Of a stretch of 6,126 nt of DNA, positions 1-5,351 are shown piece by piece. The notes under the pieces are model-generated. The model was given only the letters and a program-made list of their open reading frames with translations. It was not told the origin of the DNA and did not search any database. Source of the DNA: Chamaesiphon sp. (GTDB lineage: Bacteria; Cyanobacteriota; Cyanobacteriia; Cyanobacteriales; Chamaesiphonaceae). Numbering within the stretch: position 1 is the stretch's first letter; each line of letters begins with the position of its first letter. The translations under genes were made by a program, and so were the position numbers. Location: positions 1 through 6,126 of the forward strand of contig JAGVCD010000174.1 of assembly GCA_020059425.1 (NCBI GenBank), given 5' to 3'.

Positions 1-565
1 GCCGCTCCTTAGGTACTTGGGGAAAGATCGGGCTGTGTTCTACTTCCACATAGACCTGTTCTTGTAGCTGATAAATTCGCCAAACTTGGCCATCAAATCT
101 CCAAAATTCGGGGATTCCCAAGCTGGAATAGAACTGATTTTTGGCAATATCGGTGTGGGTAATGTCTACTTCTACTACTAAATCTGGCGGAGGATCTTGG
201 CTGAAATCTACTGTGCGACCTTTGACCAGCGGCTGATTTTGAATATAGTAAGCATTGTCCGGTTCGGCACCTTTTTTAAGATGCGGGTAGTTCATGGTGG
301 TGGAACCCATGGTTTTAAGACGCAGTCCCATTATTTCGATCAATGTCCGGATAAAGATATCGATCAAACTCCGCGAAAATTCATGTAATTCGGAAGGCAC
401 TGTAATTTCTAATACTCCATCGTCATAGGTGAGGCGGGCACGTCTTGAGTCAGGTAGTGCAGTCAGGATTTGGAGATATGCTTCCCACGATAGACTGCGC
501 AATACGACGCGCTGTTCGCCAGTGAACTGCATTTTAGTTTTCGGTTCTGGTGCGGCTATTACCAT
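1..565 (-). CDS. Uma2-family (DUF820) PD-(D/E)XK nuclease-like protein, C-terminus off the left edge
   Basis: An uninterrupted reading frame on the minus strand runs from ATG at 565 to the window edge, 188 residues read. The N-terminal half holds SWEAYLQILTALPDSRRARL and YDDGVLEITVP, then a helical stretch and EPDNAYYI (D103), all in the order expected of Uma2 proteins. The core is PPPDLVVEVD with D128 and E132, where the family's acidic active-site residues lie, followed by D139, K142 and LGIPEFWRFDG, the usual strand after the catalytic helix. A good Shine-Dalgarno AGGAGA sits 7 nt before the ATG and fixes the start; an in-frame ATG at 532 is the only near alternative. Uma2 proteins are numerous in cyanobacteria, have the restriction-endonuclease fold, and are of unsettled function; nuclease activity here is inferred from the fold. 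Only a short C-terminal tail should be missing. It is divergent from, and does not share a transcript with, the NACHT locus. Confidence 0.9.
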   Translation of the reverse strand, partial: MVIAAPEPKTKMQFTGEQRVVLRSLSWEAYLQILTALPDSRRARLTYDDGVLEITVPSELHEFSRSLIDIFIRTLIEIMGLRLKTMGSTTMNYPHLKKGAEPDNAYYIQNQPLVKGRTVDFSQDPPPDLVVEVDITHTDIAKNQFYSSLGIPEFWRFDGQVWRIYQLQEQVYVEVEHSPIFPQVPKER

Positions 566-722
566 CGATCGATCTCCTGGCAAAGAATACAAAGGTGACT
601 TGCTCTCATTGTAGATCTCAGTGGCGGGGTCAGGCTGAGTTTTTAGGTGATGATTCGGCTTTACACAGATTTATAAAATCATTAAGCGAGATGATATTTT
701 GATAGTTATATGAGACTGTATG

Positions 723-787: not shown

Positions 788-1282
788 ATGACAATTGATC
801 GACTTTCTCATCTCCAGAAGCAAATCAACCGTTACTACGAGCAAATTCAGGATCATGAGAATGCGCTTACAACAGCTCCACCAGGCGGCAAAGCTATCAT
901 CAAACAGAGAATTGAAGATGTAGCGAAAGACCTTGCTCCTGTAGAAGAAGAGTATTGGGTTTACTGGAAATCAAAAGGATCTCAACTGGAAATTGCGGAT
1001 GCTGATGCAGATATAATAACTGCTGAAATTGTAGAACAAGTAGAGATTCTACAGTACAAACCAACGGTTAAAAATAATGCAGCATTAGTCAAACTACTAA
1101 ATGAAATTAAAGCAGAATTAACCAAGCAGGAAATTCCTGGTTCGGGTAAGCTCAAAGCAGTAATTCCACTATTGCCTGGATTTTTATCTTATGAGTTGGA
1201 GTTGGATACAGAAGGGCTGTTACAACGGCTATTTCCGACATTTTCTAAGTTGGCGGCAAAACTAAAAAAGACCCTAGCCTAG
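788..1282 (+). CDS. Adaptor-like N-terminal domain of a NACHT system (free 164-aa form)
   Basis: This 164-residue ORF ends at TAG 1280-1282. Residues 1-60 look like a helical hairpin or coiled coil (MTIDRLSHLQKQINRYYEQ, then RIEDVAKDLAPVEEEYW). Residues 67-115 form two further helices, and residues 121-161 carry the distinctive block KLKAVIPLLPGFLSYELELD followed by TEGLLQRLFPTFSKLAAKLKK. As I recall, similar blocks occur at the N-terminus of, or just before, cyanobacterial NACHT/STAND proteins, so I read it as an effector-associated or TRADD-N-like adaptor domain; this is family resemblance, not proof. I chose ATG 788 over in-frame TTG 776, because the conserved-looking sequence begins at MTIDRLSHL and GAG at 778-780 is 7 nt upstream; neither start has a strong Shine-Dalgarno. 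The 3' end carries the A AAA AAG slippery heptamer in frame, so this ORF is probably also the N-terminal part of the NACHT protein that follows. Confidence 0.8.
   Translation: MTIDRLSHLQKQINRYYEQIQDHENALTTAPPGGKAIIKQRIEDVAKDLAPVEEEYWVYWKSKGSQLEIADADADIITAEIVEQVEILQYKPTVKNNAALVKLLNEIKAELTKQEIPGSGKLKAVIPLLPGFLSYELELDTEGLLQRLFPTFSKLAAKLKKTLA
1264..1270 (+). promoter_or_regulatory. Candidate -1 programmed ribosomal frameshift site (A AAA AAG)
   Basis: The adaptor frame reads gca aaa cta aaa aag acc cta gcc tag. The heptamer at 1264-1270 is A AAA AAG in X XXY YYZ phase, the same site used by E. coli dnaX. A -1 slip re-pairs both lysine tRNAs and continues gac cct agc cta gat, which is exactly the NACHT frame, open from 1249 to 3702. 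The zero-frame stop follows 9 nt after the heptamer. Stimulators are weak: a 4-pair hairpin GCCT/GGGC (1277-1280 with 1288-1291) 6 nt downstream, a possible 8-bp stem ATCGATCG/CGATCGAT (1296-1303 with 1332-1339), and no clear upstream Shine-Dalgarno. The six A's (1264-1269) could also cause RNA polymerase slippage with the same outcome. Confidence 0.6.
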
Positions 1283-3702
1283 ATCGAGGGCAAGAATCGA
1301 TCGCACACAACATACACCAAATCGACTGGCTCGATCGATCGCGCCAACTCCTCAAAGCCCAGAAATACCTCACCACCAACCGCCTCCTCAAAGAATCCAA
1401 CCGCAAAATCGATGATATTAACGTAGGACTAGTCGAGCGGAAAGAACGCCCAAAAATGAAGGAGGTGGAAGACGCAGCGCAGGGTTCTCAGATATATCAT
1501 CCAGTCGAATATATTGATACGAAACGCTTCGAGCATGAGGCATTTCTCGCCGAAGTGGTGGGAAAACCTGCTGGGGGCAAACATATCGCGATTATTGGCG
1601 AACCTGGTGCGGGTAAGACTACCATCCTGACTAAAATCGGTGCATGGCTGATTCAGCAAGCCGAGCAACAACCGCCAGCACCATTGGTAGTAGCATGGAT
1701 ATCGCTAGCAGATGTCGGAGATAACTCACTAGAAAAATATATCAAGAAAAAATGGCTCAAAAAAGTTTGCGAAGATAATTTTGATGCAGCTTGGGAAGAC
1801 TGGAAAAAATTGCGCCAGCAGTGGCGGGTATGGCTGTTATTGGATGGTTTGGATGAAATGTCTGGCGATGCTTTGGCGGCGATTCATCGCGATTTGGGAC
1901 AGGCTTGGGCGCAGAATTTGCGGGTGGTAATGACTTGTCGGCTCAATCAGTGGGAAACTGCTGCGGGTGGTAATATTCTGACGAATAGCTTTGATGTCTA
2001 TCGCACGCTGGACTATAGCTATCAAACGAGTCAGGGTGAAGACCAAGTAAAGGAGTTTATTAGCAAGTGGTTTGCCGACGATGAAAAAGTAGCTACCCAG
2101 ATTCGCACAGAGTTGGATGCTCCAGGCAAGGAACGGATTAAGGATTTGGTGAAGAATCCGCTCCGATTGACGCTATTGTGTGCGTCTTGGGAAAAAGATA
2201 ACCAAGCTCTACCAGAGATGCAAGCCGATTTGTATCGGGGGTTTGTGAATTATCTGTATAAGTGGAAGGCGGCGGAGTTTTCAGATGAAGTAAAACTCAG
2301 ACAAGAACTAGATCTAGCTCTGAGGGAACTGGCAAAAGCGGGTTTGAATCGACAACCGATTAATGATGGCGCAGTCAGACGGTTTCGCTTTACAGCTTCG
2401 GAAATTAGCGAGTTATGGAAAGATTTACCGGATACGTTGCTACCCGCTGCGAAGAATTTGGGCTGGTTGAATGTGGTGGGTGAGGAATCAGGGGAAGCTG
2501 TATATGCTTTTTACCATCCGACGTTTCAGGAATATTTTGCGGCTTGCAGTATCGATGATTGGGATTATTTTTTACCAAGGGCACATATTGATCGACCTGT
2601 TCCTTGTCAGGGTGAAGATATTCCAACTTATCGAGCATTTGAGCAAGAATGGCGACAGGTAATTTTGTTCTGGATGGGGCACAAAAATGAGATCATAACA
2701 GATACACTCAAGGAAGAATTTATCAAGAGGCTGACTGATTTTCAGGGACGAGAGGGGAAATTCTACTTTTATCGAGCTTATATTATGGCAGCGATTGTTG
2801 TAGGTGAGTTCAAGTCTTCTCAACAGGCTGAATCGATCGTTGGACAGATTATCGAATTTGCATTTGGACGTTTCAATTCAGAGAAAAATCAGTGGGAGGG
2901 TTATTTAGAGTCGATTGAATCTTTGGCGAGAGCAACAATACCTTTTACTCATAGAAAATATGCGATCAAAAGTTTAGAGGTTCTTCTCGAACAAAATAAT
3001 TCAAACAATAATAAACTCTATGAAATAAGAGAAATTTTAAATAACATCACTTCTTTTCATGAAAAAATAGTCGAGGAAGATATCAGGGAACCGAGTGATT
3101 CAATCTATTATGAACGACCTGGTTCTCGAAGTGATGAATCAATTAATCAAAAAACTGAAGATGCGATTACCATTCTTCAAAAAAGTTCTGATTGCAACCC
3201 ATTCAACCCTGATAAACTGCATTGGGCAATTGATACATTAGCTAGATCTACGGGTAATCAAAAAACGATCAAGGCTTTGATTACTTTTCTTGGACAAGGC
3301 AATCATCGTAGTAGTTTTTATCGTCCTGGTACTATTGCTGGTACTGATACTTATGGATATCAGGCCGCATTGGCTTTAGGCAAAGTTGCCGTAGGAAATA
3401 AGTTAGCGATCATTGATTTAATAGATCTCTTAAAGAATGACAAAGTGAATCATAATATATGCTTCAATGTTTATATAGCTATCTATAAAATTGTTACTAA
3501 ATCAGAAATGTTTTTGGTTATTGAAAACATTAAAGGGTACATCATACAAGGATCTTACAAGTCCAATCCTCATAGATTTAATAAATGCTACATGATTGTT
3601 TTTCAATATACTCAATTTCTTACCTATCCAGAGTTTTATAAAGCATGGCACCAGCGTCAAGATTCAGCTTCTCTAAACCTCAAATTTTTCAAGGATGACT
3701 AA
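1270..3702 (+). CDS. NACHT (STAND) NTPase with HEAT-like C-terminal region, expressed by -1 frameshift from the adaptor ORF
   Basis: The frame is open from 1249 (after TAA 1246-1248) to TAA 3700-3702. The first ATG is 1456 (748 residues), but the 62 codons before it already encode a linker that looks conserved (HNIHQIDWLDRSRQLL, then LTTN and VGLVERKERPK), with no ATG, GTG or TTG; I therefore begin the entry at the -1 frameshift point. Numbered from ATG 1456: Walker A GEPGAGKT 48-55; Walker B WLLLDGLDE 126-134; sensor-like RVVMTCRLNQW 156-166; NPLRLTLLC 234-242, typical of the NACHT helical region; winged-helix end YHPTFQEYFAA 353-363; then DDWDYFLPRAHIDRPVPCQGE; and from about 585 degenerate HEAT-like helices (HWAIDTLARSTGNQ; YQAALALGKVAVGN). 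The -1 fusion is 971 residues, adding 223 to these numbers. NACHT NTPases oligomerise on sensing a ligand, and bacterial ones act in antiphage defence; the HEAT-like part is the likely sensor. No nuclease, TIR or membrane effector domain is visible, so the N-terminal adaptor probably recruits or is the output. A pipeline would probably call 1456-3702, or a frameshifted pseudogene. Confidence 0.9.
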   Translation, partial: DPSLDRGQESIAHNIHQIDWLDRSRQLLKAQKYLTTNRLLKESNRKIDDINVGLVERKERPKMKEVEDAAQGSQIYHPVEYIDTKRFEHEAFLAEVVGKPAGGKHIAIIGEPGAGKTTILTKIGAWLIQQAEQQPPAPLVVAWISLADVGDNSLEKYIKKKWLKKVCEDNFDAAWEDWKKLRQQWRVWLLLDGLDEMSGDALAAIHRDLGQAWAQNLRVVMTCRLNQWETAAGGNILTNSFDVYRTLDYSYQTSQGEDQVKEFISKWFADDEKVATQIRTELDAPGKERIKDLVKNPLRLTLLCASWEKDNQALPEMQADLYRGFVNYLYKWKAAEFSDEVKLRQELDLALRELAKAGLNRQPINDGAVRRFRFTASEISELWKDLPDTLLPAAKNLGWLNVVGEESGEAVYAFYHPTFQEYFAACSIDDWDYFLPRAHIDRPVPCQGEDIPTYRAFEQEWRQVILFWMGHKNEIITDTLKEEFIKRLTDFQGREGKFYFYRAYIMAAIVVGEFKSSQQAESIVGQIIEFAFGRFNSEKNQWEGYLESIESLARATIPFTHRKYAIKSLEVLLEQNNSNNNKLYEIREILNNITSFHEKIVEEDIREPSDSIYYERPGSRSDESINQKTEDAITILQKSSDCNPFNPDKLHWAIDTLARSTGNQKTIKALITFLGQGNHRSSFYRPGTIAGTDTYGYQAALALGKVAVGNKLAIIDLIDLLKNDKVNHNICFNVYIAIYKIVTKSEMFLVIENIKGYIIQGSYKSNPHRFNKCYMIVFQYTQFLTYPEFYKAWHQRQDSASLNLKFFKDD

Positions 3703-3765
3703 ATTAACCCCACCCCTCCAAGCAGATTCAAATCATCTGGCCCACCAGCACCGATAATATTTCCG

Positions 3766-3829
3766 ATGCCCTCCCCCAGAACAAGAGAACTTAGTAGCAG
3801 CGATTTGCAGTGCGATTCTCCATTTTACT
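3766..3829. repeat. 64-bp direct repeat, copy 1, left of the TA cassette
   Basis: It begins ATGCCCTCCCCCAGA and ends near TTTTACT. It matches 4570-4633 at 59 of 64 positions with no gaps. A GAGAA/TTCTC inverted pair (3785-3789 with 3816-3820) is preserved in both copies, suggesting an RNA or DNA structure. It lies in the 172-nt gap between the end of the NACHT gene and the end of the minus-strand toxin gene; I see no convincing terminator there. Confidence 0.85.
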
Positions 3830-3874: not shown

Positions 3875-4237
3875 TTATTCCAAATTAAAATTAAATAGCT
3901 TCTTCATTGCTTCCATCACCTTATCAGAATCAGCTTCACCCAAATGACCAATTCGCCTCACAATTAAGGAATAATCCAGAGTAAACAATTTCATCCGCAC
4001 GATCAATTCAGCTTTCAATCCAGCCAATGACAGATCAGAAATATTCACATCCAACGCCCAAGGTTGATGAGTCGCCGTGGTAATCATTGCCATCACGCCT
4101 TTACGCATCTGGTTATTAAATATACCTGCATCCGACAGGACTAAAGCAGGTCTGCGTTTAGTTGCAACACTATCTGTAAAAGGAAAAGGTACAACGACAA
4201 CATCGAACTGGTTATAAATCTTGGTAGGCGAACTCAT
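3875..4237 (-). CDS. PemK/MazF-family type II toxin (probable endoribonuclease)
   Basis: A complete 120-residue protein. The N-terminus QFDVVVVPFPFTDSVATKRRPALVLS (residues 10-35) is the hallmark MazF/PemK strand pair, with R29-P30 at the position of the conserved active-site arginine-proline; ITTATHQPW (52-60) supplies the second conserved strand with its threonines, and LIVRMKLFTLD (78-88) the later strand. Length is normal for the family (about 110-120). MazF-like toxins cut mRNA in the cytoplasm and are held inactive by a co-expressed antitoxin. The ATG overlaps the 3' end of the antitoxin gene by 26 nt and has no strong Shine-Dalgarno, so translation is probably coupled to the antitoxin. 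The reading frame shows no sign of damage. The pair sits between two 64-bp direct repeats and is transcribed towards the NACHT gene. Confidence 0.88.
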   Translation of the reverse strand: MSSPTKIYNQFDVVVVPFPFTDSVATKRRPALVLSDAGIFNNQMRKGVMAMITTATHQPWALDVNISDLSLAGLKAELIVRMKLFTLDYSLIVRRIGHLGEADSDKVMEAMKKLFNFNLE

Positions 4238-4493
4238 CTGCTGCGGACCCCCATTCAGTCATCAAAGAAGAAATACTAACTAAATATTCTGGGCTAGGAG
4301 GATCGATCGATTGATTTTCAACGGGAACATCATTAGCCAAAGACAGACGATGCTCATTCCGAGGAGCCACACTATCAGGCACGCCATTATCTAAGATAAT
4401 TACTTCTACTGATGCACCGATCGGCAATGGTAATTCCGATCCGATCTCCAAACCATTTTCAGTGACGATCGCATCAACTTTATAAGCATTCAT
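4212..4493 (-). CDS. Antitoxin of the PemK/MazF-like pair
   Basis: A complete 93-residue acidic protein directly upstream of, and overlapping, the toxin gene. Residues 5-34 (KVDAIVTENGLEIGSELPLPIGASVEVIIL) have the strand pattern of cyanobacterial MazE/AbrB-like or related antitoxins, with the familiar 'G..VEVIIL' close. Residues 35-65 look disordered. The C-terminus (SLMTEWGSAADEFAYQDL, 76-93) is the short acidic-aromatic helix that in such antitoxins wraps the toxin. A strong Shine-Dalgarno AGGAG (plus-strand CTCCT 4502-4506) lies 8 nt before the ATG, so it should be translated well, as expected of an antitoxin made in excess. It is recognised by pattern and partner; I cannot name a precise family. 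It probably autoregulates its promoter. Confidence 0.82.
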   Translation of the reverse strand: MNAYKVDAIVTENGLEIGSELPLPIGASVEVIILDNGVPDSVAPRNEHRLSLANDVPVENQSIDPPSPEYLVSISSLMTEWGSAADEFAYQDL

Positions 4494-4528: not shown

Positions 4529-4569
4529 AACCAGCTTCAAGCCACATAGAGTTAGAGAATCTACTCCCA

Positions 4570-4633
4570 ATGCCCTCCCCCAGAGCAAGAGAACTTAGTA
4601 GCAGCGATTTGGAGTGCGATTCTCTGTCTTACT
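4570..4633. repeat. 64-bp direct repeat, copy 2, right of the TA cassette
   Basis: Same orientation as 3766-3829, offset exactly 804 bp, with five substitutions and no indels. Together they bracket the toxin-antitoxin pair and its promoter. The whole gap 4494-4811 (318 nt) holds the TA promoter, this repeat, a candidate HigBA promoter and the broken 5' end of the HigB-like gene; nothing else is apparent. Confidence 0.85.
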
Positions 4634-4811: not shown

Positions 4812-5066
4812 ATGGTACTTGATATCCTCGAAGAGCAAGGAGCCGCTTTGGGTCGCCCTTACGTTGACACCATCAAGGGTTCAGCGTTTACCAACATGAA
4901 AGAACTCCGAGTACAGTATGATGGCAATCCCTACCGCATCCTTTTTGCCTTCGACCCCCAACGCCAAGCCGTTTTACTAATAGGGGGCAATAAAAGAGGC
5001 GATAAACGCTGGTATGAGAAGAATAACCCGATCGCAGACCAACGATTTGCAGAGTGTTTAGCATAA
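4812..5066 (+). CDS. HigB-like (RelE/ParE superfamily) toxin, 5'-truncated
   Basis: 84 residues from ATG 4812 to TAA 5064-5066. LGRPYVDTIKGS (13-24), NMKELRVQYDGNPYRILFAFDP (28-49), AVLLIGGNKRGDKRWYEK (53-70) and NPIAD (72-76) are the standard blocks of Gp49-like/HigB toxins, which cut mRNA on the ribosome. Family members are usually about 110-120 residues; this one lacks the first 25-30, whose remains are readable in frame at 4716-4787. The present ATG has a good Shine-Dalgarno (GGAGA, 6 nt away), but that motif belongs to an inserted repeat and lies in a small hairpin. So the gene is either a pseudogene or makes a shortened toxin without its first strand and helix; loss of activity is more likely. 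It is 21 nt upstream of the HigA-like antitoxin gene, the toxin-first order typical of higBA. Confidence 0.8.
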   Translation: MVLDILEEQGAALGRPYVDTIKGSAFTNMKELRVQYDGNPYRILFAFDPQRQAVLLIGGNKRGDKRWYEKNNPIADQRFAECLA

Positions 5067-5087
5067 AACAAATGATGGTGAATTACT

Positions 5088-5351
5088 ATGACTCGTCAAC
5101 ACAGAACCTACAAACAAATTAAACAAGAATTCTCTCCAGAAATGCGGGCAGGAATTAGTGCTGGAGCCGATCAAATCCGAACCGAGTTGAAAATCATCAG
5201 TACGGTTCGTCAAGCCGCTGGACTTACCCAAGAAGAGTTAGCAGATTTATTAGAGGTTCGACAATCCTATATATCTCAGGTCGAAGCTAGAGAGAATATT
5301 ACTCTCACTACACTGATTAGCACGATCGCGGCCATGGGAGGATCGATCTGA
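5088..5351 (+). CDS. HigA-like XRE-family antitoxin, C-terminus lost to a frameshift
   Basis: 87 residues. Residues 36-83 form an XRE/Cro helix-turn-helix: IISTVRQAAGLTQEELADLL then VRQSYISQVEARENITLTTL, with the recognition helix around RQSYISQVE. HigA proteins bind and neutralise HigB and repress their own promoter. The frame stops at TGA 5349-5351 just after AAMGGSI, but the sequence from GAT 5345 in the -1 frame reads DLTVNFPEKPSVQFPQIE and continues for 28 codons to TAG 5429-5431. 'Gly-Gly-x-(L)-x-(V)-x-F-P' is the normal end of HigA-type proteins, so one base has probably been lost near GGATCGATCTG (for example from GGATCGGATCTG). The DNA-binding domain is intact, so repression may persist. 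The upstream Shine-Dalgarno is weak (GGTG), suggesting coupling to the toxin gene. Confidence 0.85.
   Translation: MTRQHRTYKQIKQEFSPEMRAGISAGADQIRTELKIISTVRQAAGLTQEELADLLEVRQSYISQVEARENITLTTLISTIAAMGGSI

Follow-up and report, generated by a model that had tools for sequence, protein, structure and literature searches.

In a 6,126-nucleotide (nt) contig of Chamaesiphon sp. (JAGVCD010000174.1, the whole stretch analysed, hereafter the window), a gene for a small adaptor protein is followed in the -1 frame by a long open reading frame (ORF) for a NACHT NTPase. With a probability of about 0.88, we read the locus as a single gene decoded by programmed -1 ribosomal frameshifting, in which a slip signal at the end of the adaptor probably lets some ribosomes read on into the immune-type protein that follows. 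The adaptor ORF (788-1282, plus strand; ATG 788-790, stop TAG 1280-1282) encodes 164 amino acids (aa) and contains the slippery heptamer A AAA AAG at 1264-1270, read in the adaptor frame as CTA AAA AAG, that is, in the X XXY YYZ phase, with a gap of 9 nt (ACC CTA GCC) before the stop. The -1 frame, limited upstream by TAA 1246-1248, is open across the heptamer from 1249 to its stop at 3700-3702 (1249-3702, plus strand), and has no ATG, GTG or TTG before the ATG at 1456-1458, the start chosen by a mechanical ORF call. After a slip it would add 810 aa at the C-terminal end, giving a fusion of 971 aa. A NACHT domain at 1585-2076 (PF05729, E 2.4e-8, 34.4 bits, cut-off 26.7) with the Walker A motif GEPGAGKT inside it (about 1597-1620) identifies the product as a NACHT STAND NTPase, and an NCC-H motif (NACHT C-terminal Cys/His) lies at 3571-3651 (PF22730, E 6.8e-8, 32.6 bits, cut-off 27). 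The original prediction, made from this DNA alone, had named the heptamer, the frame relation, the two product lengths and a family-like linker between the frames; all were confirmed, the linker (1271-1455) being shared with single-frame NACHT relatives.

The arrangement is conserved well beyond NACHT proteins. A genome scan with the adaptor alignment found six loci, all cyanobacterial, every one with CTA or TTA AAA AAG 0 or 3 codons ahead of the stop and a long -1 ORF. The modules at these loci, assigned from Pfam for L003 and L004 and by eye for the rest, are a window-like NACHT in two Chamaesiphon, another NACHT-like ORF in Zarconia, TPR proteins in Microcoleus and Tychonema, and VMAP-C in Richelia. 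Adaptor relatives occur in 24 of 386, 59 of 291 and 40 of 388 cyanobacterial genomes, in overlapping sets. A collection of 105 non-redundant adaptor ends, the window included, was obtained after dropping hidden Markov model (HMM) matches with E > 1e-5 or stopping short of HMM position 130, ORFs that run off the available DNA with no stop, and copies identical across the last 200 nt; several weak or partial places whose long flanks were not included (e.g. G496, G405, G671, G657) were left out. In 74 of the 105, an in-phase slippery heptamer (A AAA AAG in 63, A AAA AAA in 8, G GGA AAG in 3) is crossed by an uninterrupted -1 ORF no shorter than 150 aa. The remaining 31 comprise ten with a heptamer and no long -1 ORF, fifteen with neither, two with an ATGA overlap and no heptamer, two with a +1 ORF, one in-frame fusion and one fragment with a -1 ORF. 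Because the same layout recurs in so many relatives, the frame change is not a sequencing error. The original prediction had offered close one-frame relatives lacking the slippery motif as evidence that would tell against it; none was seen for adaptor-NACHT pairs, and the nearest two, Chamaesiphon L001 and L002, keep both the motif and the frame change. In a tree, the window adaptor groups with two Chamaesiphon adaptors (support 100/99 and 98/93).

The heptamer follows the frame change closely. Of the 77 loci whose -1 ORF reaches 150 aa or more, 74 have it within 60 nt of the adaptor stop, the other three being two ATGA overlaps and one fragment, and over all 105 loci Fisher's test for heptamer against long -1 ORF (counts 74/3/10/18) gives p 1.5e-10, kinship being ignored. 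At other codon positions of the 74 adaptors, where A makes up 29.7% of third codon positions, in-phase XXXAAAN heptamers occur at only 11 of 10,198. In 44 of the 74 the heptamer starts 7 nt ahead of the stop. The codon position with the first slippery base is filled by 13 different codons, so the motif is not dictated by the protein; replacement of A AAA AAG by G GGA AAG in three loci, plus a fourth from a later search, points to tandem tRNA slippage and not to the A-run alone. That later search (12 of 30 loci examined; a repeat re-covered the same 61 genomes) yielded four further loci with a -1 ORF (L194, L195, L206, L211), each with a slippery heptamer.

Candidate helper signals, an upstream Shine-Dalgarno (SD)-like sequence and a stem-loop predicted about 5-8 nt downstream, would accompany the slip site in most family members. 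Over the 74 loci, the 65 nt 3' of the heptamer have a mean folding z score of -1.26, and windows placed 200 nt beyond them one of +0.02. When 52 representatives are profiled in 40-nt windows from -120 to +190, a single peak emerges, at the heptamer end (z -1.48; elsewhere 0.1 to -0.5). Stems of at least 5 pairs, at least 4 of them G-C, start at 4, 5, 6, 7 and 8 nt after the heptamer in 7, 20, 19, 17 and 11 of the 52, where one stem may be counted at neighbouring start positions, and from -3 to 2 in none of them. Unbroken stems beginning exactly 5 nt after the heptamer are present in 22 of 52, against 17% in shuffles, and the first pair varies (G-C, C-G, A-T, T-A, G-T). Mean SD-like energy is -2.3 to -2.8 for 8-mers whose 3' end lies 4-10 nt upstream; at a distance of 20-40 nt it is -0.3 to +1.5. 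Both signals go beyond amino-acid-preserving shuffles, the SD at p 1e-4 (53 of 74 below the control mean) and the stem at p 6e-8 (56 of 74), kinship again being ignored.

Selection on the linker points the same way. Over the stretch from the heptamer to the first start codon, the -1 frame has a dN/dS of 0.505, compared with 0.83 and 1.07 for the other two frames; past that start the value is 0.24 (28 pairs, some sharing loci). Judged by these ratios, the linker ahead of any start codon is evolving as -1-frame protein.

The frame change appears to belong to the adaptor and not to the NACHT protein, since single-frame NACHT relatives have other N-termini and adaptor relatives are nearly all short with a KK end. 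A search with the fusion gave 806 protein matches; among the best 120 of these, the adaptor itself aside, no match to the adaptor has an E value below 0.98. Full-length reading of ten close NACHT relatives (55-73% identity) gave this picture: eight have a different, longer N-terminal region in the same frame (EAD4 in P0010, DUF4062 in P0007), and two (P0005, P0017) are short N-terminally. Searching with the adaptor gave 150 matches, and among the best 120 of these, 118 are 160-172 aa long and 115 have KK inside the last six residues. Only four longer proteins carry the adaptor in one frame, all four with TPR domains and no lysine pair. Single-frame homologs spanning the junction, which the original prediction had suggested aligning, thus exist only with other N-terminal domains on the NACHT side or as these four TPR proteins on the adaptor side. 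Of the proposal that a NACHT protein is controlled by frameshifting, the signal stands; control specific to NACHT does not, the unit apparently being adaptor plus slip signal, joined to many module types.

At E <= 1e-5 the 74 modules include NB-ARC (25), NACHT (9), VMAP-C (7), nSTAND1 (6), nSTAND4 (5) and GUN4 (4), and others seen, in 20 proteins, are FGE-sulfatase, CHAT-GUN4, AAA_35 and TPR. A genome may hold several cassettes: G004 has an NB-ARC-TPR and a TPR protein, and G045 an NB-ARC-TPR, a protein with weak PPC similarity and an adaptor with no module. If the frameshift works as we infer, it explains why gene calls split such loci. In public annotation, the Crinalium plasmid locus L164 (NC_019736.1) is a hypothetical protein plus a NACHT protein beginning well inside the -1 ORF, and L165, on a Nostoc sp. 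C057 plasmid, is a hypothetical protein plus an FGE-domain protein.

The adaptor family is unnamed, without a significant match in Pfam or NCBIfam. Its AlphaFold2 model (mean pLDDT 85.8) is all-helical, with no strand of at least 3 residues, where a TRADD-N fold would have beta strands (no TRADD-N comparison was made); fold searches returned no significant match. No named Pfam EAD model reached its cut-off with the adaptor, the only sub-threshold EAD match being EAD9 (4 of 18 members, best E 0.004; in another search 1 of 18, E 0.038). The adaptor may oligomerise. PADLOC gave no full-length system match, only P-loop matches of about 30 residues (mad8, E 9e-4; mad3, E 0.013), and nothing for the adaptor.

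Several observations weigh against the frameshift reading, some of them in the window itself. Its SD-like candidate, TGGCGG (1251-1256, plus strand; 3' end 7 nt upstream of the heptamer), is weak. Its predicted hairpin (1277-1304, plus strand; -7.2 kcal/mol, z -1.17) is no better than chance, 26 of 200 shuffles folding equally well, and its stem has no excess over synonymous shuffles (0.30 as low). Some loci have no stem at all, e.g. L165, L171, L173 and L132. A tRNA-Lys(CUU) is expected to lower slippage on A AAA AAG, and a candidate was found in 12 of 25 genomes, including one Chamaesiphon metagenome-assembled genome (tRNA-Lys(ctt) gene, L217). Slippage in the window copy may be modest, since its hairpin is weak, its SD is poor and the 5-bp hairpin common to L001 and L002 is not kept. 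Then there are the ten loci with a heptamer and no long -1 ORF. Three of these (L023, L086, L088) end at contig ends within 370 nt, four (L046, L047, L127, L128) are followed by displaced or interrupted module-like sequence, and L181 has GUN4-like sequence about 190 nt further; L051 and L117 have no match to any of the 74 modules. At L046 and L047 the -1 frame stops after 32 aa; in L046, some 790 nt beyond this point, there is an NB-ARC module sharing about 91% identity with the one in L045/L112, and L047 has only a piece. These two might each represent a cassette separated from its module. Finally, a start codon lies ahead of the P-loop in 45 of 46 P-loop loci, the exception being L043, whose first start is beyond it and which counts for the frameshift, and 18 of 74 loci have their first start no more than 30 nt from the stop; separate initiation is therefore possible at individual loci.

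As a general account, two separate proteins, in which coupling or reinitiation past the adaptor stop would start the NACHT protein at a codon of its own (ATG 1456 or a non-standard one) and the heptamer would be incidental, is nonetheless unlikely. These start codons speak for it, as do five ATC, ATA or ATT codons in the -1 frame ahead of 1456 in the window, the two coding sequences annotated on the Crinalium plasmid, and ATGA overlaps at two sister-group loci, which mean that coupling does occur in the adaptor family; it leaves unexplained why 74 of 77 loci with a -1 ORF carry an in-phase heptamer, why the stem keeps a fixed spacing, and why the linker is under -1-frame selection ahead of any ATG, GTG or TTG. 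A fusion mRNA made by RNA-polymerase slippage on the A-run (transcriptional realignment) is very improbable for the window. Such slippage requires longer runs, and the run is only A6 in 49 of 74 loci, the window among them, with G GGA AAG in three more; the SD and stem, moreover, fit a ribosomal signal. Runs of A9 with weak downstream structure do occur at the junction in 10 of 74, seven with A AAA AAA (L109, L118, L147, L148, L162, L129, L130) and three with A AAA AAG, and there polymerase slippage may replace ribosomal slippage; mean fold energy is -12.5 kcal/mol for A6G (49 loci), -6.1 for A9G (3) and -5.8 for A AAA AAA (8). Least probable of all is that one ancestral ORF has been broken, either by an error in sequencing or assembly or by a frameshift mutation of recent date. 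The break does fall in an A-run, but the identical frame relation is found in 73 other loci, including complete plasmids of Crinalium epipsammum PCC 9333 and Nostoc sp. C057, and an adaptor 99% identical over 164 aa (P0123), in two other contigs, has the same end point.

Other routes may be used in a sister group of 14 adaptors (support 91/76, not firm), in which long -1 ORFs with a heptamer are absent and members are standalone, overlap the next gene or precede a +1-frame module. In L168 and L175 the following start codon shares the sequence ATGA with the adaptor stop and there is no slippery heptamer, and L161 has a short overlap of this kind; these would be cases of translational coupling where relatives have a frameshift signal. 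In L163, L177 and L187, from three related genomes, an NB-ARC-like module follows in the +1 frame right after TTT TTT CGA/CGG, with AGGAGG upstream in L163 and L187 and ATGAGG in L177. By its layout alone, this is a candidate +1 (or -2) recoding site.

The surroundings of the window locus include a Uma2 gene at 2-592 (minus strand) and two toxin-antitoxin-like pairs adjoining the NACHT gene, at 3875-4493 (minus) and 4812-5351 (plus): a PemK/MazF-like gene with a small upstream ORF, and a Gp49-like gene with an HTH gene. A 72-nt direct repeat, in two copies 89% identical (3758-3829 and 4562-4633), flanks the PemK/MazF-like pair.

Under the frameshift reading, most ribosomes would stop at the TAG just past A AAA AAG, making free helical adaptor the main product, and a minority would slip one base back on AAA AAG and continue into the NACHT NTPase to give the adaptor-NACHT fusion. 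Free and fused adaptor would bind each other, and an excess of the free form could cap or seed complexes of the fusion, so that the system would be a conflict or immune sensor with an assembly threshold set by the product ratio. Comparison among the loci demonstrates a conserved putative signal and frame relation, a linker that reads as -1-frame coding sequence, and one cassette before many module types; slippage in the window copy, its product ratio, the binding of free to fused adaptor, and the fixed stoichiometry and defence role put forward in the original prediction we infer.

Most known cases of frameshifting in bacteria come from dnaX, prfB, transposons and phage genes. Escherichia coli dnaX (tau/gamma) yields two products of one gene through A AAA AAG with an upstream SD-like sequence and a downstream stem-loop. 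The adaptor loci share the heptamer, the predicted pair of products and, at family level, the SD-like sequence and stem-loop, but the dnaX shift gives the shorter product, whereas at the adaptor loci the long fusion would come from the shift and the short protein from the 0 frame. In OrfA/OrfAB of the IS3 family, e.g. IS911, a short 0-frame protein and a longer -1 fusion likewise arise via A AAA AAG; unlike IS3, the adaptor loci have no transposase, and one N-terminal part precedes many unrelated C-terminal modules. Phage lambda gpG/gpGT, with a major short and a minor long product, shifts at G GGA AAG, the heptamer also seen in four adaptor loci, but these are tail-assembly genes whose proteins are unrelated to the adaptor. 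The module repertoire recalls EAD conflict systems, in which helical N-terminal adaptors are combined with NTPase, VMAP-C, GUN4 and FGS modules and homotypic coupling is proposed (Kaur et al. 2020, PMC7159879; 2021, PMC8195603); the 2020 paper discusses VMAP-C, GUN4 and FGS modules in connection with EAD-type conflict systems. The window adaptor differs in having no significant match to a named EAD. The word "frameshift" is absent from both texts, as are NACHT and NB-ARC from PMC3711429 and from 300,000 characters of PMC5009743. The original prediction knew of no described NACHT protein under such control, and likewise our literature searches, with preprints and most subscription papers outside their scope, found no paper on frameshifting in NACHT, NB-ARC or STAND proteins.

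A wider proposal, to which we give even odds, is that the adaptor gene with its slip site, SD and stem forms a portable recoding cassette, attached by exchange in cyanobacteria to STAND NTPases, VMAP-C, GUN4, CHAT and FGE. Each sensor would then be made as a fusion in the minority, with free adaptor in excess; the free adaptor would co-assemble with it and set the threshold of the signalling complex, possibly across several systems per cell, and sister lineages would obtain two products by +1 slip at TTT TTT CGR, by A9 slippage or by ATGA coupling. The frameshift signal appears to travel with the adaptor domain over roughly twelve kinds of module from predicted conflict systems. If this is true, one gene yields both a free adaptor and an adaptor-armed sensor, and the ratio of free to fused adaptor would be a built-in feature of bacterial NLR-like proteins.

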